Under the pieces are notes generated by a model. The model did no database searches and was not told where the DNA came from. It saw only the letters and a list, made by a program, of their open reading frames with translations. From the NCBI GenBank assembly GCA_947476255.1, contig CANJPY010000039.1, positions 1 through 42,090 on the forward strand: a stretch of DNA of 42,090 nucleotides. Direction: 5' to 3'. Shown here piece after piece: positions 11,600 to 32,679 of the stretch (positions are counted from its first letter, which is position 1; every line of letters begins with the position of its first letter). This DNA is from Chthoniobacteraceae bacterium. GTDB lineage: Bacteria; Verrucomicrobiota; Verrucomicrobiia; Chthoniobacterales; Chthoniobacteraceae. A program made the position numbers and the translations under genes.

Positions 11600-11650
11600 T
11601 TGAGTGGTTGGGGAAATTTCTGCCCCCCCTCCAAAGGTAGGACCCTCGTG
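11600..11650 (-). repeat. Intergenic C-tract repeat, copy 1
   Basis: On the plus strand, GGGGAAATTT is followed by CTGCCCCCCCTCCAAAGG (11620-11637). A related element at about 14,870-14,925 has GGGAATT, then CTG, a run of C, and TCAAAGGG. Reading the minus strand, both show CCTTTG-A-GGGGGGG-CAG followed by TTCCC and, further on, a TGCCA. The two copies lie in the same orientation and bracket the genes at 11668-14698. Confidence 0.4.
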
Positions 11651-11667
11651 CTAAAATTAAGGAAGCA

Positions 11668-12096: not shown

Positions 12097-12152
12097 AGCC
12101 GGGAGCTCATTCGTTTCATCCACATCATCAACTTCGAAAATCACAATCATCT

Positions 12153-12404: not shown

Positions 12405-12409
12405 TCGAT

Positions 12410-13138
12410 ATGGACCAACAACCTAATTTCAAAGATGTCCCACACCGAATCAAATCCCGACGCCCAGCCCATAGTGAGTCTGAGCCACAATCATCTAAAA
12501 CCGAAACCGCAGGAAGCGCGTATGATCGAGCAATCGAGGCCGCTGGCGGAGAAAAATACCTCGCGGCCACCAAGGTCCTTGAAGGCCTTCCAAGAGCAGT
12601 TCGCCCGAATTCAAGAGTTACGACGCAATTAAATGCTGCGGTGCGGGCCGAAGAAGAAGCTTCATTGCGTCAGTTCGCAATCACGCAAGGATACCTGCAC
12701 GATGGCGAGCACTTTGAACGACAGTGGAAAGGCCAAGGGGAGATGGGAGGGGCGGAAAACGACATCATCTATGACGAGCTGACGGGTTTGGTTTGGAAGC
12801 GAAACCGTATCGATGTGATGCACTTGTCATGGAGGCAGTTTTTCGAGCGCATGCTGGCCCATAATCTTTATTTCCCTGAAGCCCCCCTGCGCCTGGAGGG
12901 GTTTGTGGAGTCGGAAAGCGGGCTGTGTCCACTTTTCACCCAACCCGACGTGCATGCAGAACGTGGTGCGCAGCGGAGCGAGGTGGAGGCCATGATGCAG
13001 GGGCGAGGCTACAAACGCAGGGCGGCTGACGACTACACCTCGGAACTGCTTTTTGTGGAGGACTTGCACCAAGGCAATGTGCTTGTCGACGAAGAGGGGG
13101 CTCTGCATGTCATCGACCCGGTCATTTTCGCGAGATGA
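12410..13138 (+). CDS. Polyvalent-protein-type kinase domain protein
   Basis: A 242-aa protein. The C-terminal half carries EDLHQGNVLVDEEGALHVID (about 217-236), the pattern LHxxN followed by a strand and IDP that marks the catalytic loop and metal-binding Asp of the atypical Ser/Thr kinase found in phage and plasmid polyvalent proteins. Upstream, ENDIIYDELTGLVWKRN (about 118-134) supplies the strand and Lys that would contact ATP. The first 60 residues look disordered. In its known context the domain is one piece of a giant protein injected ahead of mobile DNA; here it stands alone. It is five bases after the mini-protein stop. Kinase fold is likely, substrate unknown. Confidence 0.75.
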   Translation: MDQQPNFKDVPHRIKSRRPAHSESEPQSSKTETAGSAYDRAIEAAGGEKYLAATKVLEGLPRAVRPNSRVTTQLNAAVRAEEEASLRQFAITQGYLHDGEHFERQWKGQGEMGGAENDIIYDELTGLVWKRNRIDVMHLSWRQFFERMLAHNLYFPEAPLRLEGFVESESGLCPLFTQPDVHAERGAQRSEVEAMMQGRGYKRRAADDYTSELLFVEDLHQGNVLVDEEGALHVIDPVIFAR

Positions 13139-13693: not shown

Positions 13694-14698
13694 TTACTGC
13701 GCCTGATACTTCGCGGAAATTGCGAGTGCGCTCTTTCGGACGCGGTCGACGAGTTCCGAAGGTTCAAGAACGGTGCAGTGCTCCCCCCAACTTAAAATCC
13801 AAGATTCGACTTCCGAAAAAGACGCAAGTTCCAAGGTGACCTCACACTCGTCATTCGGTAATGGTTTTATGTCCTGCGAAAAGTGCCATTGTCTTTCCTG
13901 AACTCGGATGGAGGCCGCAGGTGAGAATCGCAGGCGGACAGTTTTGGGAGGGGTCTTTCCACCCTTGCCCACCATCTTAAAAGCGTGCTCCAACTGGGCA
14001 TCGATTTTTTGCCTTGAAATCGAATCAAACGTTTCATCGGTGATCTTCACACTCTTCATCCGCGTGAGTGCGAAGGTACGCATTTCATTGCGATCGTGGT
14101 CCCAGCCCATCAAGTACCACATGTCGTCATCCCATGTCATATGATGGGGATCCACCTTGCGCCGCATGAGACTTCCCTGCTCAGGCTTCCGGTAAGAAAA
14201 GGTAATCTGTTTCCGAGCATACACGGCCGAGGCTACTGCTTCGAAGCAACCCGGTTGCAATATAACCGGACGGGAGCGGTACGAAAACATGTCGCGCAAT
14301 TGGTGGTTGATCACGCTCAGTCTCCCATCATCGAGCAGTTTTATGAAACGCTCCGCTTCGCCAAATAACGGGGTGTTTCTCAAGAATTCCCGTCCACGCT
14401 GAAGCATCAGGAGGATTCCGAGGTCGGCTTTCGGAAGCTCTTTGAGTCGAGGAGCCAGCACATCATCTATCACTGCATGGCGATCCTGCTCCACCCACTC
14501 GTAATACCAGAAGTTGCGTTGTGCATTGTGTTTTGCGGGGTATCCCATCACTCGCAAAAAATCGATCGCCTTGGTGACCTGTTTTTCGGTGATGTGGAGT
14601 TTGCTTGCAATCCCGGGCTTGGTGAGTTCGCCCCGTCTGCGGTTGATGATCAAATCGTGCACTTGCAGTGCGTTTCTAAGGAGGGTGTAGCTAGACAT
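13694..14698 (-). CDS. WYL-domain transcriptional regulator 1
   Basis: A 334-aa regulator. An N-terminal winged-helix (about 1-70, starting YTLLRNALQVHDLI) is followed by a helical linker and the WYL domain with the literal WYL at 194-196 (MWYLMGWDHDRNEMRTFAL), then a C-terminal WCX-like extension to the end. WYL domains bind ligands, often nucleic acid or nucleotides, and commonly control defence islands. The ATG at 14698 is chosen over TTG 14716 because the paralogue at 27311-28072 begins at the aligned position. It diverges from the NADAR-led cassette and is a good candidate for its regulator. Confidence 0.9.
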   Translation of the reverse strand: MSSYTLLRNALQVHDLIINRRRGELTKPGIASKLHITEKQVTKAIDFLRVMGYPAKHNAQRNFWYYEWVEQDRHAVIDDVLAPRLKELPKADLGILLMLQRGREFLRNTPLFGEAERFIKLLDDGRLSVINHQLRDMFSYRSRPVILQPGCFEAVASAVYARKQITFSYRKPEQGSLMRRKVDPHHMTWDDDMWYLMGWDHDRNEMRTFALTRMKSVKITDETFDSISRQKIDAQLEHAFKMVGKGGKTPPKTVRLRFSPAASIRVQERQWHFSQDIKPLPNDECEVTLELASFSEVESWILSWGEHCTVLEPSELVDRVRKSALAISAKYQAQ

Positions 14699-15410
14699 GG
14701 ATTCCGGTGGGAGCAATTCTAAATCCCGATTTTGTATTGCATATTGTGCTTTGTGTGTATTCAGGCAAGCAACAGAAACTTCAGAAATAGCCGCATCTCA
14801 TACTGGCGCGGAAGTTGACGGTCATCAACGCCTAGGCATGAGGCTTTGACCATCGATTGGCAGCCTTTAGACCCGGAATTTGGGAATTCGCGCCCTGCCC
14901 CCCCCTCAAAGGGAACCCATGCCCGCCTACTATGTAAGGCGAGACACATACGGATTTGTGGGTGGGGAGGTGTTGGCATTTTGAGGAAATGGGGGTGGAA
15001 AATTAAGGGATGTTTAATGACATCTCGTTTCTCTTCGTGCCCTTAAGTTGAGATTTTTGAGTCGCCTGGAGGCACTTGAAACGAGTTTTGAACGTCTGTT
15101 TTTGTGCGGCAGTTTGCCTGCCAGACGGCCAAAGCGGGTAAAGCAGGGGGCGTTTTAAACCTCAAAGCTCCTGATGAAGGCTTCGTGGAAACAGTGGATA
15201 AGACGCCGGTGCCACGGTTAGCGGAAGCCGCGTGACGGTATCATTTCGAGAGAACCGGGGCGGAGAGTCGGAATGTCGACGGGGTGTGGAGTGGGGTGGG
15301 GGAAAGGTGGGTGGAGAGAGCGGGGGCGAGGCGCACATCCCAAACGTCAGTCCGAACGGATTTTGCGAGTGAGTGCAGTTAAAAACCAAACAATGAAAGG
15401 AAATAACAGT
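14699..15410. other. Long intergenic region before the NADAR cassette
   Basis: 712 bases with no convincing gene. It holds the second copy of the C-tract repeat (about 14,870-14,925), an inverted repeat GATGT-N6-ACATC at 15009-15024, a short GGCAG...CTGCC hairpin near 15111-15125, and a G-rich stretch at 15280-15330. It separates the divergent WYL regulator and NADAR genes, so promoters for both must lie here, but no clear -35/-10 pair can be picked. Confidence 0.5.
14870..14925 (-). repeat. Intergenic C-tract repeat, copy 2
   Basis: This resembles the element at 11600-11650: GGGAATT, then CTG, a run of eight C, then TCAAAGGG. Alignment is imperfect, with a short insertion between the TTCCC and CAG parts when read on the minus strand. 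Same orientation as copy 1, 3.3 kb away. Confidence 0.4.
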
Positions 15411-15965
15411 ATGGAAAACAAACAGTTGTGTAACGTTCATCGGTCTTTAAACGTCATCGCGTTCACGAAAGTGAGTTTGCCCTATGGCTGGCTGGGGAAC
15501 ATGGCTCCCTTCCCCATCGTCTATGGAGGGAAAAAGTATCTGACCTCTGAGGCCTTGTTTCAGTGTCTGCGTTATGAGGGGTTCCCGGAGGTTCAGGAAA
15601 AAATCCGTGAATGTACGTCTCCTATGGGAGCTAAAATGCAGGCAAAGAAATACAAGCACCTGATTGCTGGGTCGGTGGAAATGATGGGGCGGGAAGACTG
15701 CGAGCGGATGCTCCTTTGTTTGCGTTTGAAATTGGCGGCGTTTCCCAGGCTTCTGTCGGCGCTGCAAGCAACTGGGGAGAAGGTAATTATTGAGGATGTC
15801 GGCCGGAGATCCTCAAGGTCGGGAATGTTTTGGGGGGCCAAGTGGGACGATGCCAAAAGCCAGTGGGCAGGGCAAAACGTGCTTGGCTCACTGTGGATGC
15901 AAATTCGTCAAGAGGTGGTGCAGCAAAGTCGAGAGGTGGTGCAGCAAAGTCGAGAGGCCGCATGA
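15411..15965 (+). CDS. NADAR-family (YbiA/DUF1768-like) N-glycosidase
   Basis: A 184-aa protein with the NADAR pattern: LGNMAPFPIVYGGKKYLTSE (28-47, including the conserved aromatic/Glu), FQCLRY, GAKMQAKKYK (about 73-82), MFWGAKW and a C-terminal GQNVLGSLWMQIR. Family members split N-glycosidic bonds in riboflavin intermediates. One branch removes ADP-ribose from guanine in DNA as antitoxin to DarT1-type toxins. ATG 15411 is chosen because AAAGGA at 15397-15402 is well spaced; ATG 15393 is the alternative. No DarT gene is adjacent. It is first in a run of five same-strand genes. The tail carries a 21-bp tandem duplication giving REVVQQS twice. Confidence 0.88.
   Translation: MENKQLCNVHRSLNVIAFTKVSLPYGWLGNMAPFPIVYGGKKYLTSEALFQCLRYEGFPEVQEKIRECTSPMGAKMQAKKYKHLIAGSVEMMGREDCERMLLCLRLKLAAFPRLLSALQATGEKVIIEDVGRRSSRSGMFWGAKWDDAKSQWAGQNVLGSLWMQIRQEVVQQSREVVQQSREAA
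15911..15952 (+). repeat. 21-bp perfect tandem duplication in NADAR 3' end
   Basis: Two identical 21-base units (15911-15931 and 15932-15952), each beginning AGAGGTGGTGCAGC, followed by a partial third start AGAGG. They encode a repeated seven-residue EVVQQSR tail near the stop. In-frame length suggests a recent slippage or duplication event. Confidence 0.9.
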
Positions 15966-16020
15966 CTCGTCGGGTGTATTCGGGGTTGGGGTAAGGGTGA
16001 GCGGAGGGGCGAAAGTAGAT

Positions 16021-16113
16021 CCGGTTGGGCGCGCTCGCGCAGAGGACGGCGGCGGCAGAGCGAAAAGGCAGGTGGAGGAACGAGGGGTGTTTACATGGGC
16101 GCGTTTGCGCCCA
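16021..16113 (+). promoter_or_regulatory. GC hairpins in leader of giant repeat gene
   Basis: TGGGCGC at 16096-16102, loop GTTT, and GCGCCCA at 16107-16113 make a perfect 7-bp hairpin 46 bases before the chosen ATG at 16160. A related but imperfect version, TGGGCGCGCTCGCGC, lies at about 16025-16039. No U-run follows, so these are not typical terminators. They may be attenuation or processing structures between the NADAR gene and the large gene. Confidence 0.45.
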
Positions 16114-16159
16114 GCACCCTCATGCAGAGGAAGATCAAACCCATAGAAAACAAAAAACT

Positions 16160-19100
16160 ATGCAAGACATGATTGATCCAAAGAAGCAGGCGACACGAGC
16201 CGACGTTTATCGCTGGCCCCAGAAGGTGAAGCGTTATGGCTTGGATTTGCATCCGTTTCTGCGGCTGTTTGTGGGCCTTTATGAAAACACCGTGCCCTGG
16301 AACAAACACTCCAAGGGTTGGAATGCGGCTCTTTTGAACGAGTATATCCGCGACACGCTCCTGCCTGCGCTTGAGCCGACGGATTGTTCGGGTTCCTTGG
16401 ATGCCCCGTTTGGCGCAAAATACTATCTCAAAAACGTGGCTCTTGAAGCTGCGTTGCAAGCGGATGAACACGCGGAACTCGTGGCGCTCCGTCCCCGTGT
16501 GAGCTCTGATCCGGAAGGGGTGAAGGCGGCGGTGCTGCACTTTTTCAACAAGCGCAAACAGTTGCGCTTCAGGGAGTGGTGGGACGTCATGCATACGGAA
16601 TATCCGGACAACCCCGCCTGGATCTACTGCGTGTTGAAATCGGTTTTCGATGATTGCGGCCGTGGCGTGCGCCGCGCCCCCGACCGCGTCGAACAGCGTG
16701 CCGTGCATACCATGGCCGTCGCGGTGCAACAGGGGAATTTTGTGCCCGGGGCGGGCCTGGTGAGCATCTACGTGATCCAGCGCATGCGCCTTTTGACGGG
16801 CACCGCGCGGTATCTGCATCACGGGTGGACGCGGATTCCGGGCATCTCCAACGGTGAACCGACAAAGGAAGGCGTGAGCCTGCTCGCGTTTCTGGGGAGG
16901 AAAGGAGGGTGGTGTGTTGCGAGTGAGACATTGGGCCGCAGTTACCTTAGTCGGTGTGACTTTTTCGTCCTGTGCGACAGAGACACGCCTGTCATAGGCG
17001 CGCGCATCGGAAAAGAGGCCATCCATGGGGCTGCCGGTTGTCGGAACGGACCGCTGAAGCACAGTCGCGACCTCGAGCTATTGCGGCGTATCATCTTTCC
17101 AAACCACAAAGGTTTTTCGTCCTACAATAGGGATGCGGACACCGACTCGTGGAGCGACAGTCATTGGGTTGAGGCGTTGAAACGCTTTCCATTCGGCTGG
17201 GAGCATGCGCCCGCACATTTGCGCAAAGATCCCGTCTTAAAAAACGAGGTGTTTGCGGCTCTCCTAAGGCAAGCGGCTTTGGATCCGTTTTGGGCGCGTC
17301 ACATGCCGCTCGAGTTTTGCGGTCGTCCCGAATTGGCGGATATTGAGAGGATTTCCTGGCTCAGCCACTTGGAGAACCTCCCTGTGCAGCCTTCCACGGT
17401 CCCGACGATTCTTTTTAGCGACCCGGAAATGGTCAGGGCATTGGAAAAAGGGTGGGAGACGTTTGCTCAGTCAACCCCCCTGTACGCTGAGCAAATCCCG
17501 GAACAGATTTTCCAGAAAGAAATCTTTAAGCGTCACTGGGCCAAAGGTTGGAGGAGGGAGCTGTTCCGGTGCGCGAACACTTGGGAGCGGATTCCCGCAA
17601 CGCTGAGGGCTATGCCAAGCATCCAAAAAACGAGGATTAATGGCTGGAAAATATTGCTTCGTCGTTCCGTGGACCAATGGCGTCATGTTCCTCATGAACT
17701 GGCGGGCCTGCCGGAGGTGAAGGAGGCCTGGAGCAGCGGCTGGGCTTCACAGCTCGAGCGTTACACTCATCTCTGGGATCAGGTCCCCCAGGAACTTAGA
17801 GAGGTGCCAAAGATCAAGGCAGACCGCCTCACAGGGTTCAAATTGGCGATTAAGCAGCGCGCACAACGTTGGAGTGAGATTCCTGAAGAATTCAAAGGGA
17901 TACCTGAGGTTCGGGAAGCCTGGATTCAGGGCTGGGAGGCTGAACTGCTGAGTTCAACGTACAGTTGGGGGAGGGTTCCGGATGAGCTCCAAGAGTTGCC
18001 GCAGATCAAGGCGGCTTGGGTAGGCGGTTGGGAGGCCTCGCTTCGCCGCTGTACCTCGTGGTGGATGTATGTTCCCTCTGAGCTCAAGAAGCTTCCGCAA
18101 ATCAAGGAGGCTTGTGTCATTGGCTGGGAAGCAGAGATTCGACGTTGCCCGGACAGAGCCCAGTGTGTGCCCTATGAACTGGTTGAAAATCAGAGGCTTT
18201 TCTCTAAGCTCAGGGTTTTCTGGCTGCATCATTTGACGAACCACCCCGTCAATCTGTCAGCTATCCCTAAGGAGCTTTCGAGCGAGCCTGAGATTGTGAA
18301 GGCTTGGGAGGACGGCTGGCTGCTTTACGTCTCCACAAGCGATCTGGACATCGACAAAATACCATCGCAGATTGCTGCGTTAGATTCCTTCAAACCCTTT
18401 TGGGTTCGGGGTTGGCAGGGTGAAGTGCTGCGTTCACCGCTCAGTTGGTTGCGTGTTCCGAGTGAACTCAAAGGACTGCCAGGCCTGAGACAAGCCTGTG
18501 TGCAGGGTTGGGAAAGCGAGCTTCGCCATTCCCCGGAGCGCTGGAGGTACCTTCCCCCGGAACTCGCAGCAGAGCCTTGTATCAGGGAAGGTTGGATCCA
18601 GGGCTGGGAGGCACAACTCGGCCGCGAGCCGGAAAGCTGGAAGCACGTTCCCGAAGAGCTCAAACCGTTGCCCAATATTATGGGGGCCATGATCAAGGGG
18701 TGGGATGCGGCGCTTAGGCTCGCCCCGGAGAGCTGGCGGCATATTTCCGAGGAGGTCCGGCAACTGCCTCAAATCAGGGAGGCGTGGATCGCTGGTTGGG
18801 AGCAGTCCCTGGGCAGGTTCCCGCAGGGGTGCGGGCGCATTCCGGAGGAAGTGATTGAACGCTCACGGCTATCGTCGAAGGTGAGGGCGTTGTGGCAGGA
18901 TTATTTGGCGAAAACGCCCGTCCATCCTTCAAAAGTTCCCAAACCTCTTTCAAGAGATCCGGACATCGCGAAGGCGATGGAAGCGGGTTGGCAGGTCTAC
19001 GCAGCGTCAAAGCCGCTGGAGGTTGCAGAGATACCCGAGCAGGTATTGGAGTCGGCAGCTTTCAAAACGCATTGGGTTCACGGTTGGGAGCTGGAGCTTG

Positions 19101-20332
19101 TGCGAGAGCCCAAGTGTTGGGCGCAGGTTCCGAGGGCGCTGCGAGAAGTGCCAGCATTGACGGAGGCCAGGCTCAAGGGCTGGGATGCAAGCCTTGGGGC
19201 CTCTATGGAAGCCTGGAATGAACTTCCTTCTGAGATCGCGGATCTGCCGCGTTTCAGGAAGGCGTGGGAGAGCTCGAGTCGGACCTATTTGGCGAGTTTA
19301 CGGCGAGTTGTCGTGGACGTGCCTGCATTTGTTTGCAGGGAAAAAGACCTGTTTGCGCAATGGGATTCCATCTTGCGGCAGGCGCTCTCGGAGGGGTGCG
19401 TCATGGGCCGCTATGCCCTCTGGAAAACCTGGGTCAGGTATGCATCCATGGTTCCTGTCCGCATGAGTGAAGCTCCGGAAGCTGTGCGCTCCGATGCGTG
19501 TTTTCAGGCGGCATGGCGCGAATGCTGGCTGAGGCAAATGCGTTCCCCTTGGAGCGAGCGGTTCCTCGCGAGGCTCGCGGACGAGGGCCTCCTTGAGAGG
19601 GTCCTGGAGGGATGGGTGAAGCTGAACACAGCAGGCAGTTCGCCCTGCATTCCGGCGCTGCCTGCCGGAGTCTGCGATGCGCTGGCTCGCATGGCCAGTG
19701 ATCTATCGGAGCGCAAAATCATGAGGCACCCCGGGGTGAAGGTCTTGCGCTGGCTGGAACAAAATCCGTGGACCTTCGAGGATCTGCCGCAGGGGCAAAA
19801 GGACCACCCCTTCCTTTGGCGCGCATGCAGAGATGGCTGGCTGCACTATTTGAAGCTGTTTCCCCGTTTCGAAGAGGTGCTGCCGGGCGCCTTTTCTTCC
19901 GATCCTAAGATCAGCGCCGTTTTGCGCACGAATGCCGTGGAAAGGGAGTCTTTTGAGGAGAAAAGAAAGGCGGACAAACTTGCCAGAGGGTTGGCGGCGC
20001 TCAAGGCGGCCCCGGGATTCACCGACGAGGAACTTCCACGCGAATTCGCCAAGAATCGTGAGCTTCGCAAGGCTCGCCAACGCCACTGGCGTAGGATCAT
20101 CGCAAAGAATCCACGGGCCTTTCCTCGCGTACCGCAAAGTCTGCAACGTGATGCCGAACTTCTGGCCAGCCTCCGGGGGAATCTGGGCCCTGAAATCCGC
20201 TCGAATCCGCTGCTCTGGGAGACGCTCCACGAGGCCATACGCGCTGACGAGTGCCTGCAGCGGGTGCATCGCATCGCGACCCGCGCCGGCGTTCGTTTGG
20301 CGCCCGAGGCAACCTCGGCGAAGGCTGCATGA
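16160..20332 (+). CDS. Giant (1390 aa) helical-repeat protein, DUF4116-like
   Basis: ATG 16160 is preferred; the frame is open from 16025 but that leader contains the hairpins. Residues 1-360 form a unique N-domain with a signature GGWCVASET...YLSRCDFFVLC...VIGARIG...GAAGCRNG (about 247-297), similar in pattern to the WCTA...YL..GDFYV....G.P..GIR...I.EI.G..N block of phage and plasmid DUF4116-type proteins. From about 380 to 1050 a 32-residue repeat recurs: W..VP.EL..LP.I.EAWI.GWE..L...P. Three longer blocks begin near 17335, 18190 and 18865. The C-terminal 300 residues are less regular. No signal or membrane helix. Such arrays usually make curved helical scaffolds; the role here is unknown. 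Confidence 0.8.
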   Translation: MQDMIDPKKQATRADVYRWPQKVKRYGLDLHPFLRLFVGLYENTVPWNKHSKGWNAALLNEYIRDTLLPALEPTDCSGSLDAPFGAKYYLKNVALEAALQADEHAELVALRPRVSSDPEGVKAAVLHFFNKRKQLRFREWWDVMHTEYPDNPAWIYCVLKSVFDDCGRGVRRAPDRVEQRAVHTMAVAVQQGNFVPGAGLVSIYVIQRMRLLTGTARYLHHGWTRIPGISNGEPTKEGVSLLAFLGRKGGWCVASETLGRSYLSRCDFFVLCDRDTPVIGARIGKEAIHGAAGCRNGPLKHSRDLELLRRIIFPNHKGFSSYNRDADTDSWSDSHWVEALKRFPFGWEHAPAHLRKDPVLKNEVFAALLRQAALDPFWARHMPLEFCGRPELADIERISWLSHLENLPVQPSTVPTILFSDPEMVRALEKGWETFAQSTPLYAEQIPEQIFQKEIFKRHWAKGWRRELFRCANTWERIPATLRAMPSIQKTRINGWKILLRRSVDQWRHVPHELAGLPEVKEAWSSGWASQLERYTHLWDQVPQELREVPKIKADRLTGFKLAIKQRAQRWSEIPEEFKGIPEVREAWIQGWEAELLSSTYSWGRVPDELQELPQIKAAWVGGWEASLRRCTSWWMYVPSELKKLPQIKEACVIGWEAEIRRCPDRAQCVPYELVENQRLFSKLRVFWLHHLTNHPVNLSAIPKELSSEPEIVKAWEDGWLLYVSTSDLDIDKIPSQIAALDSFKPFWVRGWQGEVLRSPLSWLRVPSELKGLPGLRQACVQGWESELRHSPERWRYLPPELAAEPCIREGWIQGWEAQLGREPESWKHVPEELKPLPNIMGAMIKGWDAALRLAPESWRHISEEVRQLPQIREAWIAGWEQSLGRFPQGCGRIPEEVIERSRLSSKVRALWQDYLAKTPVHPSKVPKPLSRDPDIAKAMEAGWQVYAASKPLEVAEIPEQVLESAAFKTHWVHGWELELVREPKCWAQVPRALREVPALTEARLKGWDASLGASMEAWNELPSEIADLPRFRKAWESSSRTYLASLRRVVVDVPAFVCREKDLFAQWDSILRQALSEGCVMGRYALWKTWVRYASMVPVRMSEAPEAVRSDACFQAAWRECWLRQMRSPWSERFLARLADEGLLERVLEGWVKLNTAGSSPCIPALPAGVCDALARMASDLSERKIMRHPGVKVLRWLEQNPWTFEDLPQGQKDHPFLWRACRDGWLHYLKLFPRFEEVLPGAFSSDPKISAVLRTNAVERESFEEKRKADKLARGLAALKAAPGFTDEELPREFAKNRELRKARQRHWRRIIAKNPRAFPRVPQSLQRDAELLASLRGNLGPEIRSNPLLWETLHEAIRADECLQRVHRIATRAGVRLAPEATSAKAA

Positions 20333-20485
20333 GCGCGGGCGCCGCTCGGCCCCACAAACCTTTAACCTTCAAATGTAAATAGAAAGACATTCAGACAATA
20401 TTAAGTTGTGGCTTGCTGCAGCTTGTGCAAATTGGGTCCCGCTGGGGCCCGTCATCACACCGTTCACCCTCAAAAATACATCCCT

Positions 20486-21913
20486 ATGCCTGAGAATACG
20501 TTATACTCCATCCATCCGGCCCCGCCCACGCAGAATCCGACCGGCAGAAATCCCCAGAGTTACCTGCATGAAGCCGGTAATCTGCATCCTCAATTGGTGA
20601 ATCAACTCCCAAACCTGCATTTGCCCCCGGGGGGGCTGCTGGATCGACACATGGTTCGGCATATTTGCCTGAATCCGAACGTCCATGTTCTTACGGCGTA
20701 CGCCGTGGCGATGGCGTGGGGCGGGCAGGACATGGGGTATTTTCGAACATCGGTGGGGAGCCCCAGTCTGCCCGGCCTGCTGCTGCAGTTGAGGGGGAGT
20801 GTTAACAATCGGGCTGCCGACTTTGCAATCACTCAGACTGCCGCCGCGGCCATCCATGGTCTGGGAATCTCGTATTACACCAAACTGCTGTATTTTTTCC
20901 GTCCGTCCCCCGATGCCTACATCCTAGACCAGTGGACGGTGAAGTCTGCGAGGCTCCTATTCCACCCGTGCGGGGTCCATATGAGAGGAGACCTCCCCGA
21001 TCCAAACACCACACCCGTCCAATATGAGTGGTTTTGCGCTGAGTTAGACCGCTTGGCGCCTCGTCTGTGGCCGGCCAATCCGGGTGCCAGCGGCGAGGCT
21101 GCGGAAGTTGCGATTTTTGACGAGGGACATGGGCGCGGCGAATGGAGAAAATATGTGGTGGCTCATTTTGAAAACGAGAGAGTCGCCCGGGCGGTCAGGA
21201 GCGGAGCGCAGTGTCTTACCACTCATCAGGACTTTAGTGACGGCTGGCTGGTGATTCGTGTCCAGGATGGTTTAGAGATACATGCCACCGGAGTGCGTGC
21301 GGGGGATGGGAAGACGTTGCGGGTTCTTTTGGCGCGCATCCGTGAGCTCAAGCCGCGTCGAGTGTTCTTTCCGGCGGGGACGGTGGCTCTTCCGGATTGG
21401 TTCCTCGCCGCGTGCGAATCGCTTGGCGTGGAGGTTGTGTATTGCGAGTTTGGTGAGGGGCCCGGTAGGAATCCGGAGGGAGATGCCGGTCAAGACCCGG
21501 TTGCAGGCCCGGTTGTAGGCCCCGCAGGGGCCGTGGATTTGATGCGCGACGAGATTCGCCGCCAGCATGAGATGCGGCGTGCCGAGATGCCCGGAATCCC
21601 TAGCGTCAGGTATCAGGGCCCTCCCCACCGCTTGTCGACGGGAATGACGCATAATCACCCGGCTCAAGGGGGGACGTTTCAGTATCATCTAAACGCCAAT
21701 AGCGTGAGAGTGGATGTCTTCTTCGGGAATCCAAACAACTACGCTGCGCTTAACCATCGCAAAGGCGGGAATCACCAGTTCCCGGAGGCGCAGGCGAGGG
21801 GAAACGGCACACGGGCAGTGTCTGTCCAAGTCCCAAACCATCCTGCAGGCGTTGTCGCAACCGCTGGAAACGCGGTCGATGCCATGGTCCGCCTGTGGAA
21901 CGGTTTGATGTGA
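20486..21913 (+). CDS. OGG-fold DNA-glycosylase-like protein with novel C-terminus
   Basis: ATG 20486 is chosen (earlier in-frame starts lie in a Cys-rich leader). In the 475-aa product, residues about 95-160 include a helix AADFAITQTAAAAIHGLG followed by SYYTKLLYFF and then AYILDQWTVKSARLLF. This matches the helix-hairpin-helix/GPD part of 8-oxoguanine glycosylase-fold proteins, where a conserved Asp (here LDQ) activates the nucleophile. The usual catalytic Lys is not certain. The middle part (about 215-330) looks alpha/beta with ILVR-rich strands. The C-terminus (about 380-475) is Asn/His-rich and unlike known domains. Same strand as its neighbours, 154 bases after the giant gene. Confidence 0.6.
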   Translation: MPENTLYSIHPAPPTQNPTGRNPQSYLHEAGNLHPQLVNQLPNLHLPPGGLLDRHMVRHICLNPNVHVLTAYAVAMAWGGQDMGYFRTSVGSPSLPGLLLQLRGSVNNRAADFAITQTAAAAIHGLGISYYTKLLYFFRPSPDAYILDQWTVKSARLLFHPCGVHMRGDLPDPNTTPVQYEWFCAELDRLAPRLWPANPGASGEAAEVAIFDEGHGRGEWRKYVVAHFENERVARAVRSGAQCLTTHQDFSDGWLVIRVQDGLEIHATGVRAGDGKTLRVLLARIRELKPRRVFFPAGTVALPDWFLAACESLGVEVVYCEFGEGPGRNPEGDAGQDPVAGPVVGPAGAVDLMRDEIRRQHEMRRAEMPGIPSVRYQGPPHRLSTGMTHNHPAQGGTFQYHLNANSVRVDVFFGNPNNYAALNHRKGGNHQFPEAQARGNGTRAVSVQVPNHPAGVVATAGNAVDAMVRLWNGLM

Positions 21914-22066
21914 CGCCCAAGGCGTCGCCTCCTGCCTCGAAGTCGCATGAAGCGATGAGGGCTGGAGGCATGCCGGTTGAGCAAAAGCCAAAGGGCCTCG
22001 GTGGTTCTTAAAAGTCTTCAAAGCAAACCCATTCATTTCTTTCTACGCCTTATTTGACTCTTTTTT

Positions 22067-23347
22067 ATGCCATATGACTTCACTCCCAAGGGTCTTGGAA
22101 AAGGCGTTGGCCGCGTTTCTAAACACAAAACAGCGTCCGGAGAAACCCGCCATCAGTACGAGATACTGGATGAAAAAATCGGCGCAAACGGGGAGGCCTC
22201 GTCCCGCCTGCTTCAGCGCACGGCGGAGGGCGATCCCTATCGCGCGCAGACGAAGATAAACGCATTCAATTTCCCGTTTACGGGCAACAGCGGGGGAGGG
22301 TGCTTTTTCCAGTGTTCTTATTGCTTCCTGCGCCAGCCTTTTTTTCAGATGCACCGCACGCTTCCGCACGGTCGCGAGATGGATGTCTCGCTCAATTTTG
22401 GGTCAGCCACGGAGGCGTTTCTGAGGAAAAACGCACATTTGCCTCAGTACATGAAGCGCGTGCAGTGGGGCGTTGCGACTGAAATGTGGCATCCTCGTAC
22501 GGTCGGTTTGGGCAAACCCTTTGAGGGACTGAGGGCCTTTCAAAAATTCGGCCAGAATTGGATGCTTCACATTGTGACAAAATCTCCAAAGATTCTGGAT
22601 TATGCCGAGCTTCTTGCCGAGATGAAGCATCAGGTGCAGGTGGAGGTGAGTTTTGTGACGTTGAACGAGGAGGCCTCCCGGATCTTTGAAACAGGCACCC
22701 CCAGCGTGCGGCAACGCTTGCACATTGTGGAAGAACTCTCGCGAAAGGGGGTTTTTGTGCGCGTCATGATGATGCCGTGCATGCGCGAATATGTGCTGCA
22801 GACGATTGAAAATGTCCGTCATATTGTTTTTGAGCATCGTGACACAGGGAAAAGAGCGGCGGGTTTCAAGCGCGTCAGCGAGCGAGACGGCAACGCCGGG
22901 GAAGACAAGGTGGGGCTTGAGTTGTACATCAGCAAACGCTGGAAAAAGCTTCCACCCGGGGAGAGTTGTCTCTGGAAACCTGTGATTCTCAAAGACTGGT
23001 CGGACCTCGCTCAGACGCAGGCGAGTTGGCGAAACTGGGGGGCCAGCGCCTACAAGCAGAAGGACCTGAACTATTACTATGTGGACGAACTCATCCAAGC
23101 GCATCAGGAGGCTCGCGCCCCAAAGCCTGAACGCGGCAGGGTGGAGGATCCGACGGCTGAATGCCTTGTTCAGTCTGGAGAGAGTGTCGTGGATGAAAAC
23201 GGGAACTTCCGCACGGTGGAGGTGCGCGGGCACCACAAACCGAGGAGGGAGTGGAGTGGCGCAAAAACTCCACCCCTGGTCATGCGCAACATCATGGACT
23301 TTGGCTACCGACTGCACTCGAACATCGACTGGGTGGACTGCATTTAG
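22067..23347 (+). CDS. SPL-like radical SAM enzyme
   Basis: A 426-aa protein with the radical SAM cluster motif CFFQCSYC: Cys79, Cys83 and Cys86 (CX3CX2C) bind a 4Fe-4S cluster that cleaves S-adenosylmethionine. The surroundings (NAFNFPFTGNSGGGC upstream; WGVATEMWHPRT, LHIVTKSP and VEVSFVTLNEEASRIFE after it) fit the spore-photoproduct-lyase-like (SPL/Rv2578c) branch. True SPL reverses UV thymine dimers; most relatives have unknown substrates. It follows the OGG-fold gene by 153 bases and precedes the second repeat gene by 41. A nucleic-acid repair or modification role is attractive given the neighbours but not shown. Confidence 0.85.
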   Translation: MPYDFTPKGLGKGVGRVSKHKTASGETRHQYEILDEKIGANGEASSRLLQRTAEGDPYRAQTKINAFNFPFTGNSGGGCFFQCSYCFLRQPFFQMHRTLPHGREMDVSLNFGSATEAFLRKNAHLPQYMKRVQWGVATEMWHPRTVGLGKPFEGLRAFQKFGQNWMLHIVTKSPKILDYAELLAEMKHQVQVEVSFVTLNEEASRIFETGTPSVRQRLHIVEELSRKGVFVRVMMMPCMREYVLQTIENVRHIVFEHRDTGKRAAGFKRVSERDGNAGEDKVGLELYISKRWKKLPPGESCLWKPVILKDWSDLAQTQASWRNWGASAYKQKDLNYYYVDELIQAHQEARAPKPERGRVEDPTAECLVQSGESVVDENGNFRTVEVRGHHKPRREWSGAKTPPLVMRNIMDFGYRLHSNIDWVDCI

Positions 23348-23388
23348 CACCCCTCACAAACGCCCGCATCATTGATTCACCGCGCGAG

Positions 23389-26214
23389 ATGAGTCGGGCC
23401 TGGCTTCACGAAGACCTTTTTCCAGACAATAGTTCCACAAATGATCAGGATAGCGCATCAGAAATGGGTTCAAACCTCCCGCCACGGCTGGATCGGAAAA
23501 TGAAATATTCGGGGCCTAATGCAGTTGACCAAGCCGTAACTCACTTTAGGAGAGCTCAGCCAGCGGCGCAATTTGCGATCGTTCAACGGGCCATTCGTGG
23601 CCGGAATTGGACATTCCTCAGGGAATTGATTCTGCGAACAAACTGCGTGAGAGACGGGCTTGTCTGCGAGTTGCCTCTCGGTTTCCATCCGGGCAAGAAA
23701 GTGAGGATGGTTTGGAACGAGCGCCTGAAAATGACCGTTGCCGACTTCAACCGGCTTCCGGATCCACAGAAAGCGGAGCGGATTCTGGAGGCGGAGCGTC
23801 TCGGGCAGAATGGCTTCCTGAGGGTGCTCATTTTAAAAACCGATTGCGTGCGGGACGGTTTTATCGGGAAATTCCCAAAGTTATCCTGGAGGATGACCAG
23901 GGCAGTTAAAGCGGAATGGCAAAGGCAGGAGGCCGCTTTCGTCGATCGCTTCAGGCAGGCAACGGGTCGGGAGCGTGCGATGACTTTGCGAAGAATCTTC
24001 GAACTGAAGCAGTGGCGCGCATTGACCGTTCTGGTGGAATCGGGACGGATTGGGCTGCTTGGGCTGCCGGGAGAAATGCCCGATGTCATCAGTGAGCAAC
24101 GGGCCTGTTATAAGCAATGGGAGGAGCAGATCATCGAGGCACTGGGACATTTTGCAGACCTGCCGCGCGCGCAAAAAAAGGAGGCTCTTTCCGACGCTCT
24201 TGTATTTCAGAAGACCCGTTTTATCAGGGAATTACTCATCGCTTCATGCGATGGTCTCGGGCAGTTTTTGGAATCAGTGCCGTGTGCGGTTCTTTCAGAC
24301 GAGAAGGTGAATGAAAACTGGATGCACCTGCGTTTGGCGGAGTTGGAAAACTCGCAGGACCCGGCGCTCAAAGTGCTTTATAAAATGCAGCGTCTCCGCG
24401 CCGAGCCCGTGAACTACGCAGTGGCACGCCAGCGGGGCATTGAGGACGATGCGGCGCTTTTTTCCGCCTGGCGAGAGGGGTGGATCGCCTTCCTTCGAAG
24501 CCGGCGAGTATCCCGGAGGATGATTCCAAAATTGCTCTTAAACGACCCAGAAGTTGCCATTGGAGCCCGGAGTGAGGGCTTCGGAAAGCCCGGCGCCGCA
24601 ACAACGCTGGGCGTTGAGAACCGCCGTACGCGGAAAATCCCCGCCGCTCCCGGGTCGCCTTCGGTGTCAGTGTTGGCTGTTTCATGCCTCGTGGGTGCGC
24701 CCGAGGGCGTATGGAGCGAGGGCGGGGTGACGGATACGCTCGAGTCAAGGGAGGCGTGGGCCTGGGCGTGGCGAATGCATCTGTTGTGGAACCCCGGTGA
24801 TACGGCAGTGCCACCGTTACAACTTCAGAATATTCCTCAAATTCTGGAGGCGTGGGCGGCGCGGCGCATTTCAAATCTGGCCTCTGAATATTCGCTGGAT
24901 GAGCATGGCATGCCATTCCCAGCTGACACCAACGTGACCTTGCTGAATGGCGGCCTTTTGGATGTTTGGGCCCACGCGTGGAATCAGTTTGCCCGCCGCG
25001 ACGGTGCCCGGCGGGTGATTAATGTGGTTCCCCGCGAGTTGCGTTCGCACCCTTTGATGGAGGCGCTGTGCAGGGAAGGCCTCGTGTCCCTTCCTCAGGA
25101 TATTGGGAGTGCGTTGGCTCATCCCGATGCATTGCAGCGGGAGCGGGGCTGCACGCGTCTGGTCGCTGAACTCAAGCGGATGCCGTTTCCGTTGGCGTTA
25201 ATTCCTGAGGCTTTGCTTGAAAACTCCGAGGTTCTTTCTGCCTGGGGCAGGGGATGGCGGGATTTCTTCGAAAAGCAGGCAATGCCAAGCGAGGCTATTC
25301 CCAGCTTGTTGGCATCCCATGAGGCGGTTCTTCGGGCTTGGAGACAAGCGTGGAGCAGCGTGATCAAGCGGGGGGAGCTCATCCCCTGGCACTGCATCCC
25401 AATGTGTCTCCGCAGCGAGGAAAACTTTCGTCGCGAGGTTATTGAAAAATGGCTAGCGCACGCAAAGGAGCGAAAATGGATTCGCTCCGCCGTGCCTGAT
25501 GGAATTGCCGAGAGAGAAGCGCTGTTTTTCCAGTGGCTCAAGGCGTGGTACATACTGCCGAAAAAGAGGCGGTTTTTAAGAAGCACGGGTAAAGAACCGT
25601 GGGTGCCAGAGCATCGGTGTGAATACTGGACACGGTTTTTGTGCAGCACCCCGGTCGATACGCTTGATTTGATCCCGAAGAAGTTTAGAAAGCTGGCAGC
25701 TGTGATGCGGGCGTGGACACAAGGGTGGTTGATGGCTCTCAAAGAAAACGCCGTGGATCCTGTGAAGATCCCCGGGAAGATTTTCGCGATGGCGGAGGGC
25801 TTTGAGGCTTTCCGAATGGGATGGATTGCAACGATGCGTACGGCTTCCTTGTCCTTCTGGGAGCTTCCAGAAGCTCTGCGGCAGGACCCCGGTGTTGTAG
25901 AATCCCTGCTTGAAGGATGGACCAGTCGCATCGAGTCCTTCTCAGAGCAGGATCTATGGCTGCTTCCGCCCAGGGCTTGGTTCAACCCGGTGACAGAATG
26001 TGAGGCGCCTCAAGCAGAGGACCGGAGCGTTTGTATGTCTGAGGGAGAAAAGGATTGGGAAACGTCGTTTCAGGAGGTTCCGCTTTCGCAACTGTGGATG
26101 GATGCCGGTTCGAGGATCCAGGCGAGTTTAAGAACGAAATGTCTCAAACTGTTTGCCCTCGATTCGGATAAGTTGAACGCGGCCCTTGACCGTCACATTG
26201 ATAGGACTCCGTGA
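23389..26214 (+). CDS. Second large (941 aa) helical-repeat protein
   Basis: ATG 23389 lies 41 bases after the radical SAM stop; the frame opens earlier only inside that gene. Two repeat types are visible. The first (about 65-300) has units of about 67 residues; two neighbouring copies share FLRELILRTNCVRDGL and FLRVLILKTDCVRDGF (DNA starts 23614 and 23815), with weaker copies near 24022 and 24221. The rest carries degenerate 30-odd-residue units like those of the 1390-aa protein (IPKKFRKLAAVMRAWTQGW, LPEALRQDPGVVESLLEGW). The stretch at about 24,580-24,720 is Gly/Pro/Ser-rich and breaks the pattern. Cytosolic; no catalytic motif seen. Confidence 0.75.
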   Translation: MSRAWLHEDLFPDNSSTNDQDSASEMGSNLPPRLDRKMKYSGPNAVDQAVTHFRRAQPAAQFAIVQRAIRGRNWTFLRELILRTNCVRDGLVCELPLGFHPGKKVRMVWNERLKMTVADFNRLPDPQKAERILEAERLGQNGFLRVLILKTDCVRDGFIGKFPKLSWRMTRAVKAEWQRQEAAFVDRFRQATGRERAMTLRRIFELKQWRALTVLVESGRIGLLGLPGEMPDVISEQRACYKQWEEQIIEALGHFADLPRAQKKEALSDALVFQKTRFIRELLIASCDGLGQFLESVPCAVLSDEKVNENWMHLRLAELENSQDPALKVLYKMQRLRAEPVNYAVARQRGIEDDAALFSAWREGWIAFLRSRRVSRRMIPKLLLNDPEVAIGARSEGFGKPGAATTLGVENRRTRKIPAAPGSPSVSVLAVSCLVGAPEGVWSEGGVTDTLESREAWAWAWRMHLLWNPGDTAVPPLQLQNIPQILEAWAARRISNLASEYSLDEHGMPFPADTNVTLLNGGLLDVWAHAWNQFARRDGARRVINVVPRELRSHPLMEALCREGLVSLPQDIGSALAHPDALQRERGCTRLVAELKRMPFPLALIPEALLENSEVLSAWGRGWRDFFEKQAMPSEAIPSLLASHEAVLRAWRQAWSSVIKRGELIPWHCIPMCLRSEENFRREVIEKWLAHAKERKWIRSAVPDGIAEREALFFQWLKAWYILPKKRRFLRSTGKEPWVPEHRCEYWTRFLCSTPVDTLDLIPKKFRKLAAVMRAWTQGWLMALKENAVDPVKIPGKIFAMAEGFEAFRMGWIATMRTASLSFWELPEALRQDPGVVESLLEGWTSRIESFSEQDLWLLPPRAWFNPVTECEAPQAEDRSVCMSEGEKDWETSFQEVPLSQLWMDAGSRIQASLRTKCLKLFALDSDKLNAALDRHIDRTP

Positions 26215-26301
26215 AGAGGTTGCAGAGGCAGTCCGTGAACTCGGTCGTGATGCACCTCTCCTCGCGGCATTGTTTGACAGGGTGCTGGCCCACAACTTTT
26301 A
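26185..26301 (+). pseudogene. C-terminal remnant overlapping the repeat gene end
   Basis: In the +1 frame across the end of the 941-aa gene, the DNA reads a natural-looking helix (IGLREEVAEAVRELGRDAPL then LAALFDRVLAHNF) before a stop at 26299-26301. It has no start of its own. Either it is the tail of a lost gene or the 941-aa frame is shifted near its end. Nothing else is convincing in 26302-26428. Confidence 0.35.
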
Positions 26302-26428
26302 GTGCAGAAGCCTCCTTTCGGTTGGACGCGATGTGTGGAATTGAGGGCGCTATTGCTTCTCGAGGAGTACCACGGCGTTAGCCGAGGACACCGGGACACC
26401 GACAACTGCCGTGGGCGAGTTGAATGCC

Positions 26429-27268
26429 TTACTGCAGTTCACATTCACAAGTCGGATTACGGGTATATTTGGGGTCATGGTACTGTTCCCTGACGAGGGT
26501 GTAGTGTGGGGCGACAATCCGACTCAGTTCACACCATGCCTCGCAAAATGTTTTGTAGCCCTCTTTGCCCAGAAAATACCTAGTTCCTCCGGGTATCCCA
26601 AGATGGTGCCCAGTGAGGGCTTTCCAGCCAGCGGCTCCTTGTAATGCTTTTATAACGTCGGTCGACAAAATGGATTTGGCATTGTCGTGAAAACTTAAAG
26701 CAAAAGGTCCGTGACCTTTGTTATTCGATGGTGCAATGACGGCAATGTTAGGCTTACCATCGCCCCGTTCGATCTTAACTGTTTGAACCCAGTTTGATCG
26801 AGTATCTGAATGCAAAATTTTCATCTGATTAAAATCTAAACGGAAAAACTGTGATAGCCACTCGATTCCTGAACGGCTATATGCGAATTGTAGCTCTGGT
26901 GTGCAAGTGAATTGAGGATCCCCACAAACACATCCGGCATCAAAATCGTCCGAAGCGTTTAGCGGGACTACATTACACCATGATTCATCCCAAGGAGGCG
27001 GGTTCGGCCCGTGAACTGGGTTGTTTGTATTTATTTCAATCCCATTGCGCCAGTTCGGATTAATTTTGCAAAGCAGTTGATACAATGTTGGATAGACGCA
27101 GACCTGCCCAGCGTTTCCTCGAGTGCGGACCACATACCCGATGATTGGACCACCATCTTTGGTTTCAAAAATGTTAAACTGTCTTCCGACACAGCCTGGT
27201 GGAACCCCGCCGCCATCGTTACGTCTCCAAGTTTGAGCGGGTTTCAAATAGAGGGTTATGTTTGACAT
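26429..27268 (-). CDS. Hypothetical 279-aa protein, Cys/Trp-rich
   Basis: ATG 27268 is preferred over TTG 27277. The protein has a Gly/Pro-rich N-terminus, a Cys-containing middle (GCVCGDPQFTCTPE) and a C-terminal Cys pair (TCECE), and it lacks a signal peptide. The pattern of aromatic and Asn residues gives no family. It converges on the repeat-protein gene and lies 42 bases downstream of WYL regulator 2, so it may belong to that operon. GC is lower than that of the large genes. Confidence 0.65.
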   Translation of the reverse strand: MSNITLYLKPAQTWRRNDGGGVPPGCVGRQFNIFETKDGGPIIGYVVRTRGNAGQVCVYPTLYQLLCKINPNWRNGIEINTNNPVHGPNPPPWDESWCNVVPLNASDDFDAGCVCGDPQFTCTPELQFAYSRSGIEWLSQFFRLDFNQMKILHSDTRSNWVQTVKIERGDGKPNIAVIAPSNNKGHGPFALSFHDNAKSILSTDVIKALQGAAGWKALTGHHLGIPGGTRYFLGKEGYKTFCEAWCELSRIVAPHYTLVREQYHDPKYTRNPTCECELQ

Positions 27269-27310
27269 CACACTCAATCGACAGAATTTTGCCTGACTTT
27301 AGTTAATTTT

Positions 27311-28072
27311 CTAAGGCAGAGGAAGGAGCTCCCCAAACGAGTCCCGCAAGTACCGCTTCACAAGGCCCGGTTCCGGTGCTGGGAAATGCTCGCCTGTGCG
27401 GGCAGTCTTCGTAATGCATACCAACGGAAATGTCCTCACCACGTTTTGCGAGGGCTCTCGTGCAACCAGATACCATAGCCCCTCGCTCGAGGTCAGGTGG
27501 TATGGCTCGAGGGTGTAGACCTCCTCCGCATCCTGAATTACAACCTCAATTTGCGCACGCTCGTAGGCCGCCTCGCCGAGGGATTGAAACACACCTTCTG
27601 CGATGCTGCTCCCCTCCCTTGGGCGGATCGAAAAAACCTCGCCCATATCACGGGTCTGTTTCCAGAGGTCCGTTTCAAGCAGGGATTCGAAAAACTCCCG
27701 GACATCACCCCACAGTGGCGTTCCCACTAGGGAGTCCAGTCCGTTTCTGAGCATCAGCAGGACCGCAAAGGTGGGTTTGGGAAGGCTCCCGTAGCGTTTT
27801 GTGAAGGTCTCCAACAGGCTGGGATGCAGCTTGTTGGGGTCCCAATTGTAAAACCAGCGGTGCTGGGTTTCATCATATTGCACCGGGTAGCCGAGATTGC
27901 TCAGAAACGTAATCGCACTGTCGATCTGTTTATCCGACAAGCTCAGCGGGCTGACGATTCGAAGTTTCAGCGCCAGGGCGATGTCTGGTTTTGTCAGACT
28001 TTTGCCGGGCTTGGATTCAGCGATCAGCTCATGAATCCGGAGCACGTTGCGAAGGAGTTTGTAGTTTGCCAT
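27311..28072 (-). CDS. WYL-domain regulator 2 (paralogue of the first)
   Basis: A 253-aa protein starting at ATG 28072; the frame extends to 28336 but that leader overlaps the upstream gene. MANYKLLRNVLRIHELI aligns with the start of the regulator at 13694-14698, and both have the LTKP...I..A..FL...GYP winged-helix pattern. WYL is literal at 200-202 (LWYLVAREPSQNVVRTFPL). It stops about 80 residues short of the first regulator, so the C-terminal WCX extension is largely missing. The pair flanks the NADAR-to-repeat cassette, one at each side. Confidence 0.88.
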   Translation of the reverse strand: MANYKLLRNVLRIHELIAESKPGKSLTKPDIALALKLRIVSPLSLSDKQIDSAITFLSNLGYPVQYDETQHRWFYNWDPNKLHPSLLETFTKRYGSLPKPTFAVLLMLRNGLDSLVGTPLWGDVREFFESLLETDLWKQTRDMGEVFSIRPREGSSIAEGVFQSLGEAAYERAQIEVVIQDAEEVYTLEPYHLTSSEGLWYLVAREPSQNVVRTFPLVCITKTARTGEHFPAPEPGLVKRYLRDSFGELLPLP

Positions 28073-28259: not shown

Positions 28260-28856
28260 CTATTCAGAGTTTGGGCGTCCTTCTCCGGCGGATTTTTTGG
28301 CAATAAAATCCTCCAGAAAAGGGAGAAATGCCTCAAGGGTGGGTTCGGGACCGCCGCCGTGATTGAGATGCCTGCCGTTGGAATCCCATTCGCAAAACAG
28401 ACTTTTTCTTCCCTTCACGTAACCCGAGTACCGCTCGAGAGTATAGTAATTGAGCGTCCATTCTTTTTGGCGCCCTGGGCCGGGATTCTCAGGATTTGGC
28501 TCTCCCCAAGTCATGAGATCCTCCTCCTCAATTTTTGAAACAATCGCCACAAAATACGCCTCCGTCGCTTCATGTGGAGGCGGCATTTCTACAACAAGGC
28601 ATGGAAGATTGGCGAAAGAATGCCGCGTGATCTTGAAGTCTGACGGTGTGTAATGGCGGACGGAGCCGTCTTCGATCAGCATATCGGTGGCTTCCAAAAG
28701 AGCCTCAAGGCGGGAGTTGAGGACCGCCTTGGGTCCTTCCGTGAAGAAGGAAAAAATCTCGCTCATGAAATGCACTGAAACATCCAAAAGGGCTCTGTGT
28801 GCGAAGGCGTAATGATGCGGGGACCAGCGATCGTCCTCGGGTGAATTTTGTTGCAT
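28260..28856 (-). CDS. Hypothetical protein, member of a local paralogous pair (B)
   Basis: A 198-aa soluble protein beginning with DRWSPHHYAFAHRALLD, closely matching DRWSPHHYLFVHQVLLN in the gene at 29312-29995. Other shared features are EMPPP versus SMPPP, EAYF.A.VS, NYYTLER versus NFYTLER, FCEWD and a C-terminal FL.FL.DF. No catalytic motif is recognised; conserved His, Trp and Cys residues could form an active or binding site. It lies upstream of WYL 2 on the same strand. The ATG at 28856 follows a very AT-rich region that probably holds its promoter. Confidence 0.75.
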   Translation of the reverse strand: MQQNSPEDDRWSPHHYAFAHRALLDVSVHFMSEIFSFFTEGPKAVLNSRLEALLEATDMLIEDGSVRHYTPSDFKITRHSFANLPCLVVEMPPPHEATEAYFVAIVSKIEEEDLMTWGEPNPENPGPGRQKEWTLNYYTLERYSGYVKGRKSLFCEWDSNGRHLNHGGGPEPTLEAFLPFLEDFIAKKSAGEGRPNSE

Positions 28857-32148: not shown

Positions 32149-32204
32149 GGGGGATGGAGAGGGGCGGGTGCGGGGCGGAAGTGATTGTAATGACAAATAT
32201 TTAA

Positions 32205-32673: not shown

Positions 32674-32679
32674 GTCAAC

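Follow-up and report, generated by a model that had tools for sequence, protein, structure and literature searches.

Do five same-strand genes between two WYL regulators form one system, and of what kind? We ask this for contig C39 of a 5.15-Mb genome in 189 contigs (G000); the window is the contig at positions 1-42090, that is, 42,090 nucleotides (nt). Its central island encodes a NADAR protein, two giant repeat proteins (RepA and RepB), an OGG-like protein and a radical SAM enzyme. The host is a Spartobacteria-type bacterium that we take to be of freshwater origin, as we presume of such metagenome-assembled genomes. The island is known from one genus. Tentatively, at a probability of about 0.43 that includes the joint functions proposed below, we read it as a genus-specific modular conflict or stress island beside a conjugation cluster. 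It contains two units that recur in a relative: a leader, NADAR and a Rep gene, and the radical SAM gene with RepB. WYL1 is divergent from the first unit in G000, the X, Y and WYL genes are shuffled companions, and the OGG-like gene is an extra in G000 alone of three genomes.

Recurrence of the island in one genus

The homolog searches covered 40 genomes from the family of G000, comprising 12 of genus g1 and 28 others, and 288 genomes of the phylum. Among the 40 family genomes (E 1e-6), full-length homologs of the radical SAM enzyme, 80-84% identical, occur in two genomes besides G000 (G292 and G294), and the same two encode NADAR homologs at 73-75% identity. The two genes are jointly present in these three of the 12 genus genomes and jointly missing from the other nine. 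In each of the three they lie 5-9 kb apart on the same contig, together with Rep-family proteins. The chance of such a coincidence, were the genes independent, is 1 in 220, a figure that is indicative only and no independent test, given the linkage between the genes and the relatedness of the genomes. Four more family genomes have radical SAM matches at 27-30% identity that cover the core domain only, and two further ones encode NADARs at 32-36%. The radical SAM enzyme has no homolog in the 287 other phylum genomes at E 1e-15.

The Rep family occurs in eight of the 12 genus genomes and in none of the 28 other family genomes (E 1e-8), nor was it found in the 287 other phylum genomes at E 1e-6. 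Family X is present in G000 and G294 only, of the 40 genomes, and was not found in G292. The three set-carrying genomes are drafts with completeness of 93, 68 (G292) and 95%. Absences among the genus genomes are soft because completeness there ranges from 62 to 97%.

Gene order is different in all three genomes. In G000 it reads WYL1, then leader-NADAR-RepA-OGG-radical SAM-RepB, then a gene for a protein of 282 amino acids (aa), WYL2, X, Y and X. One strand of G292 contig C9 carries radical SAM-RepB and, 5.7 kb on, NADAR and then a Rep gene truncated by the contig end, and contig C40 of this genome carries RepA-MoxR-DUF2201/vWA-Rep-Rep. On G294 contig C14, MoxR-DUF2201/vWA-Rep-Rep is followed by a kinase gene, a GIY-YIG-like gene, a 181-aa gene, a histone-deacetylase-family gene and a vWA gene. 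The same contig continues with NADAR, a second NADAR-like gene, WYL, a gene that by eye resembles DNA polymerase IV, the run X-Y-radical SAM-X and a repeat protein. G000 and G292 have two adjacent pairs in common: NADAR with a Rep gene after it, and the radical SAM gene with RepB after it. The second pair is 84% identical to G292 at the DNA level over 4.2 kb (22010-26198, blastn).

An earlier note on this DNA had suggested that all five genes, the OGG-like one among them, probably form one operon whose products may sense and reverse a nucleic-acid modification, or make one. All five genes do lie on one strand with gaps of 41-194 nt, and the activities of the families are compatible with such a role. 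We nevertheless regard this arrangement as improbable. No OGG homolog was found in G292 or G294 at E 0.001, with G292 only 68% complete, and G292 carries radical SAM-RepB without NADAR-RepA in front, its DNA similarity to the window starting only 57 nt 5' of the radical SAM start. The leader described below precedes NADAR, MoxR and RepA and never the radical SAM gene. Because radical SAM-RepB stands apart in G292 and the leader does not precede it, we conclude that there are two units and not one fixed operon. The gaps of about 150 nt given in that note hold for RepA-OGG and OGG-radical SAM (153 nt each), whereas NADAR-RepA is separated by about 194 nt and radical SAM-RepB, the one closely spaced pair, by 41 nt. 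Recurrence in other genomes, which the note had made its check, was borne out for NADAR, the radical SAM enzyme and the Rep proteins (3/12 genus genomes) and failed for OGG.

OGG homologs occur at five places in four family genomes besides G000. Four of these places have defense genes of unrelated kinds nearby, and the fifth (L020) lies outside the scan. One homolog is two genes after an ATPase matching the PADLOC candidate PDC-M07A (L017), and another has genes for a cytosine methyltransferase and an MzaC-like protein about 6-8 kb away (L018). A third directly follows the gene for a type I specificity subunit and has a PDC-M16A-like protein farther on (L019), and a fourth is about 3.4 kb from AbiEii (L016). 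Since OGG was not found in the relatives and its homologs sit in other defense loci, it looks like a late insertion and is probably an outsider to the set. The recurring parts, NADAR-Rep and radical SAM-RepB, can in this way be separated from a probable addition.

An upstream leader shared with a MoxR-vWA unit

The intergenic stretch between WYL1 and NADAR matches sites in the relatives (blastn). Alignment and a profile scan delimit a leader of about 150-180 nt with six strong sites in the 474,038 nt examined. It precedes NADAR in all three genomes, the island MoxR gene in both G292 and G294, and RepA in G292. A 21-mer core is exact in five of the six sites and carries two mismatches in the sixth; at up to three mismatches, 0.00 chance matches are expected in the window. 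The core lies about 205-455 nt from the start codon. The leader has no Rfam match. By eye, a TATAAT-like motif is found 5' of the core in the G294 copies, and a promoter scan reported nothing in the leader stretch of the window.

A hairpin within the leader can form at all six sites, with 97.9% of 48 cells paired (1/48 unpaired), compared with 37.5-60.4% for slid versions. Both sides vary in three of its eight pairs (0.8 in shuffled versions), and 9 of 500 shuffles reach that three. For the five measures of the hairpin, the numbers of the 500 shuffles that reach them are 4, 9, 4, 14 and 4. The hairpin was selected on the consensus fold of these six sites and is for that reason only suggestive.

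Because one leader precedes NADAR, RepA and the MoxR-vWA genes, the comparison suggests that these units are joined into a regulon, one that includes a MoxR-vWA unit missing from the window. The label MoxR-like is based on an AAA_5 match (33.0 bits, cut-off 22) and on the neighboring DUF2201 gene. In G292 and G294 this AAA_5 ATPase and a DUF2201_N/DUF2201 metallopeptidase-vWA protein lie beside Rep genes and behind the common leader, which resembles the MoxR-vWA conflict systems (PMC7159879) and the jumbo-phage pair (PMC7824862). One published subtype of the ternary systems has a radical SAM effector. The island differs from these systems: no FtsH or VMAP third component was noticed, NADAR has 0 occurrences in PMC7159879, and the unit is missing from the window. 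Contig C28 of G000 holds two distant MoxR-like/DUF2201-vWA-like pairs without the leader core (L063:768-3097, L064:4355-6561).

The jumbo-phage likeness raises the possibility that NADAR, MoxR with metallopeptidase-vWA and the polyvalent-type kinase are counter-defense or virion-assembly genes derived from a large phage or similar element and mixed with host Rep proteins. NADARs are described in jumbo phages (PMC7824862, a review that also mentions WYL), as is a MoxR ATPase paired with a vWA protein that carries a metallopeptidase at its N-terminus. The G294 MoxR matches phrog_1297 at 149 bits, the window NADAR phrog_1017 at 76 bits and the radical SAM enzyme phrog_13321 at 50 bits, and the kinase belongs to PF18762. 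A phage cargo is decidedly improbable, however. Six short patterns each for the radical SAM and OGG-like proteins found no relatives in viral contigs, and phage records hold none of the radical SAM enzyme. The leader is absent from the phage records and its exact core from the viral contigs. No phage structural gene was found among the window genes scanned, and the Rep family is limited to the genus and has a core chromosomal member.

A more serious contender, doubtful though we find it, is that these are separate accessory genes on a mobile island, each acting alone, with only the neighbors NADAR-RepA and radical SAM-RepB perhaps linked. Gene order varies in all three genomes, OGG homologs are scattered among unrelated defense loci, the radical SAM gene lacks the common leader, the G294 homolog of RepB is elsewhere, and the window contains restriction, helicase and PIN genes besides. 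Independent action fits poorly with close NADAR and radical SAM homologs that are both present or both absent across 12 genomes, with family X in two of the same three genomes and no other, and with a leader that links the NADAR, RepA and MoxR units between genomes. Through this co-presence and the leader, NADAR acquires a concrete set of candidate partners, the MoxR-vWA unit and a solenoid family confined to the genus. Should the leader prove a genuine regulatory element, sequence searches alone could locate the remaining members of the regulon.

Protein families and possible functions

Domain calls compare Pfam, NCBIfam and PADLOC model scores with the family cut-offs. Residues of NADAR and RepA are numbered from 15405 and 16154, respectively, both two codons 5' of an ATG.

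NADAR passes the gathering score of PF08719. Structures to which it can be aligned are E. coli YbiA (PDB: 2b3w) and, with a weaker match, the NADAR-domain protein 8bau. Its E49 and E130 align to published active-site glutamates (E43 and E125 in P. nicotianae numbering, in which the Lys is K50) and form a YbiA-type Glu pair. In G294, a diverged second NADAR-like protein is encoded in tandem (L042:12346-12993; 32.2 bits, cut-off 35.1).

NADARs also act in toxin-antitoxin or anti-phage pairs (DarT-NADAR, YarT-YbiA or DS-32), and the best NCBIfam model for the window protein is DS32_2 (NF053876). DS-32 pairs occur elsewhere in the phylum, and the window NADAR is 34-37% identical to those of three DS-32-like loci, the third matched by eye, which carry the same Arg in place of Lys. 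The score of 109.1 bits lies below the cut-off of 240, and the downstream partner is a giant repeat protein, not the phosphoribosyltransferase NF053875, which is missing from the ten surrounding genes. DS-32 membership was rejected on these grounds; the NF053875 model does match the DS-32-type loci L074 and L075. DarT1-NADAR, which reverses guanine ADP-ribosylation, and YarT-YbiA share the YbiA-fold enzyme, with E49 and E130 on the published glutamates. The window differs from them in having no ADP-ribosyltransferase family among the neighboring genes scanned (the neighbors are WYL1 and RepA), an Arg for Lys, and a YbiA-type Glu where DarT1-type has Asp; DarT1-NADAR membership was rejected too. 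A known NADAR pair is therefore scarcely credible here. DS-32 presumably stems from the DefensePredictor study, whose main text was not found to give the number. The DS-32-type pairs lie at L074:7766-12653, L075:8180-11304 and, by eye, L076:1774-3707. In the first two, NADAR is the N-terminus of an open frame of 1269 and 700 aa, respectively, and the L075 frame weakly matches a type I specificity subunit.

The radical SAM enzyme had been called SPL-like, after spore photoproduct lyase, which proved a loose label: TIGR04070 and TIGR03886 score 13.5 and 12.4 bits, with cut-offs of 400 and 437.55. We reject an identity as spore photoproduct lyase at 12-14 bits where 400 or more is required. The closest NCBIfam models are Rv2578c (54 bits, cut-off 430) and PA0069 (51 bits, cut-off 360). 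Those two radical SAM proteins are the nearest in kind, although the window enzyme falls far below both cut-offs and its full-length relatives were found in this genus only. The enzyme could modify a peptide or protein, such as X, Y or a Rep protein, instead of nucleic acid. X, Y, radical SAM and X are consecutive on one G294 strand, the lyase models score so low, and a radical SAM effector with a standalone peptide gene has been proposed for simple MoxR-vWA-FtsH ternary systems (PMC7159879). A peptide target is all the same very improbable, given that X and Y do not adjoin the radical SAM gene in G000, X was not found in G292, the best models are Rv2578c and PA0069, and none of the peptide-maturase models comes near its cut-off.

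In the OGG-like protein, GLG, K133 and D148 (numbered from 20486) are invariant in six of six aligned sequences. A Lys and an Asp have roles in HhH glycosylase/lyases, and the conserved residues would fit, without proving, a working glycosylase. The spacing differs from that of hOGG1. Brig1, a DNA-glycosylase defense described in PMC11078745, similarly places a base-excision-family protein in a defense setting. The OGG-like protein differs in being PF21790 and no fixed part of the island, and the likeness seen is one of setting.

RepA and RepB are related (24% identity over 257 aa, E 1e-14 for that single comparison), and RepA contains regular repeats of 32 residues. A single-sequence model of a 471-aa RepA core is an all-helical repeat (predicted local distance difference test, pLDDT, 78.7; predicted template modeling score, pTM, 0.45), by which the core is predicted to be an alpha-solenoid. 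A putative scaffold role of RepA builds on this partial model, and no solved structure matched RepA convincingly. A RepA-related 605-aa protein is encoded among chromosomal genes on G000 contig C24 (32287-34104; L008/L009). Because this neighborhood is kept in G302, G293 and G300, hence in four genus genomes including G000, the island Rep proteins may have been recruited from a genus-core family. Rep relatives in G294 and G301 (L047, L048) have other neighbors in the stretches read.

Sensing, reversing or making a nucleic-acid modification is compatible with the predicted protein families. In order of falling support, we propose the following steps for the modular island. The leader, the WYL proteins or both would co-induce the NADAR-RepA and MoxR-vWA units on damage or infection. 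Rep proteins, whose family includes the genus-core protein, may serve as alpha-solenoid scaffolds or adaptors that hold clients for the enzymes. NADAR could strip ADP-ribose from nucleobases or act on free ADP-ribose derivatives, and the radical SAM enzyme might share that damaged or modified target. Where it has been acquired, the OGG-like protein might contribute base excision. That all of this amounts to one RNA-leader- and WYL-controlled immune regulon, in which MoxR-vWA, NADAR, client-holding Rep proteins and the radical SAM enzyme jointly sense and reverse nucleic-acid or nucleotide modification under phage or toxin attack, seems unlikely to us.

In line with the earlier note, which knew of no described system with such a set, searches of the open-licence literature found no description of NADAR with radical SAM, repeat-protein, OGG and WYL genes, nothing joining NADAR with radical SAM and defense, and nothing joining OGG with a defense island.

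Several observations weigh against a modular island with joint functions. The CX3CX2C motif, present in the radical SAM enzymes of G000 and G294, is missing in G292 (L044:9486-10745), where the frame is open and 84% identical and a seven-residue gap removes the motif start. This copy is decaying, repurposed or an assembly error; because the motif is absent, radical chemistry would be dispensable in G292 or the gene would be decaying. In NADAR, R56 takes the place of the usual Lys. A K-to-R mutant of E. coli C7 NADAR kept hydrolysis in vitro and lost rescue from the toxin (PMC11543638). The model of RepB failed (pLDDT 37). In G294 the RepB homolog (47% identical) is on another contig, without NADAR or radical SAM in the 12 kb read, and the radical SAM gene adjoins X and Y, not RepB. 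The stretches of G292 that were read showed no WYL gene, and no leader precedes the radical SAM gene in any of the three genomes. The MoxR-vWA unit has no close homolog in G000 and is not among the window genes scanned, and the stretch read around a third, more distant MoxR-vWA pair, that of G296 (MoxR 56%, vWA 38%), lacks the leader. Just 4 of 32 pairs of the whole consensus fold change on both sides, and the covariation of the hairpin, chosen and counted on the same six related sequences, is not decisive. Finally, the sample is three drafts of one genus, and co-location may reflect one inherited event.

Gene layout and flanks of the island

Open reading frames and domain calls confirm five plus-strand genes bracketed by two paralogous WYL genes (31% identity over 250 aa; Table 1), as the earlier note had described. 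It had overlooked the minus-strand 282-aa gene before WYL2. Nor do the WYL genes mark the limits of the island, as the common set extends past both: the DNA of 11626-13133 shares 82% identity with a block in the G294 island, and 28957-29094 is also similar to DNA of that island (blastn). The G294 island encodes a WYL1 homolog that is 54% identical.

Table 1. Genes and elements of the island, with positions in the window
Feature	Position	Strand	Evidence or remark
Small GIY-YIG-like gene (by eye)	11668-12096	+	RE_Eco29kI only weak, 15.4 bits (cut-off 30.8); 84.5% identical homolog in G294 island
Polyvalent-protein-type kinase PF18762	12410-13138	+	86.8 bits (cut-off 27); 82% identical homolog in G294 island
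WYL1 regulator	13694-14716	-	WYL 70.4 bits, WCX 66.2 bits; divergent from NADAR
Upstream element (leader/promoter region)	14895-15075	+	Six places in three genomes; 21-mer core 14955-14975
Hairpin inside leader	15007-15026	+	Some covariation
NADAR	15411 (or ATG 15393)-15965	+	51.2 bits (cut-off 35.1)
RepA, 1390 aa from ATG	16160-20332	+	32-residue repeats; no family match
OGG-like HhH-type protein	20486-21913 (or 20408 with upstream GTG)	+	PF21790 49.5 bits (cut-off 27)
Radical SAM enzyme	22067-23347	+	PF04055 37.5 bits (cut-off 29.5); CX3CX2C at residues 79-86
RepB, 941-aa repeat protein	23389-26214	+	No family match; paralogous to RepA
282-aa gene between RepB and WYL2	26429-27277	-	No family match
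WYL2 regulator	27311-28072	-	WYL 33.4 bits (cut-off 21.8); no WCX domain reported
Family X protein	28260-28856	-	Family in G000 and G294 only, of 40 genomes
Family Y protein, overlapping upstream X gene	28956-29351	-	50% identical Y in G294, after X and before radical SAM
Second family X protein	29312-29995	-	Same X family as 28260-28856

To the left of the island lies a conjugation/type IV secretion cluster (2043-9913) that encodes a TraC/VirB4-type ATPase (37.3 bits), TrbI (58.9 bits) and a CagX-like protein below cut-off. The right flank (30034-35694) carries a NERD-helicase-like gene, a Nudix gene and a type IV restriction-like helicase; PADLOC matches there are type IV restriction at 646 bits and NERD-helicase at 60 bits. 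Given the conjugation genes on one side and the NERD-helicase, restriction, Nudix and PIN genes on the other, the setting is mobile and of a defense type. The two PIN-domain proteins (36565-36984 and 38242-38676) are possibly toxin-antitoxin members. A small protein encoded at 12153-12404 has three similar Cys/His-rich units and no Pfam family.

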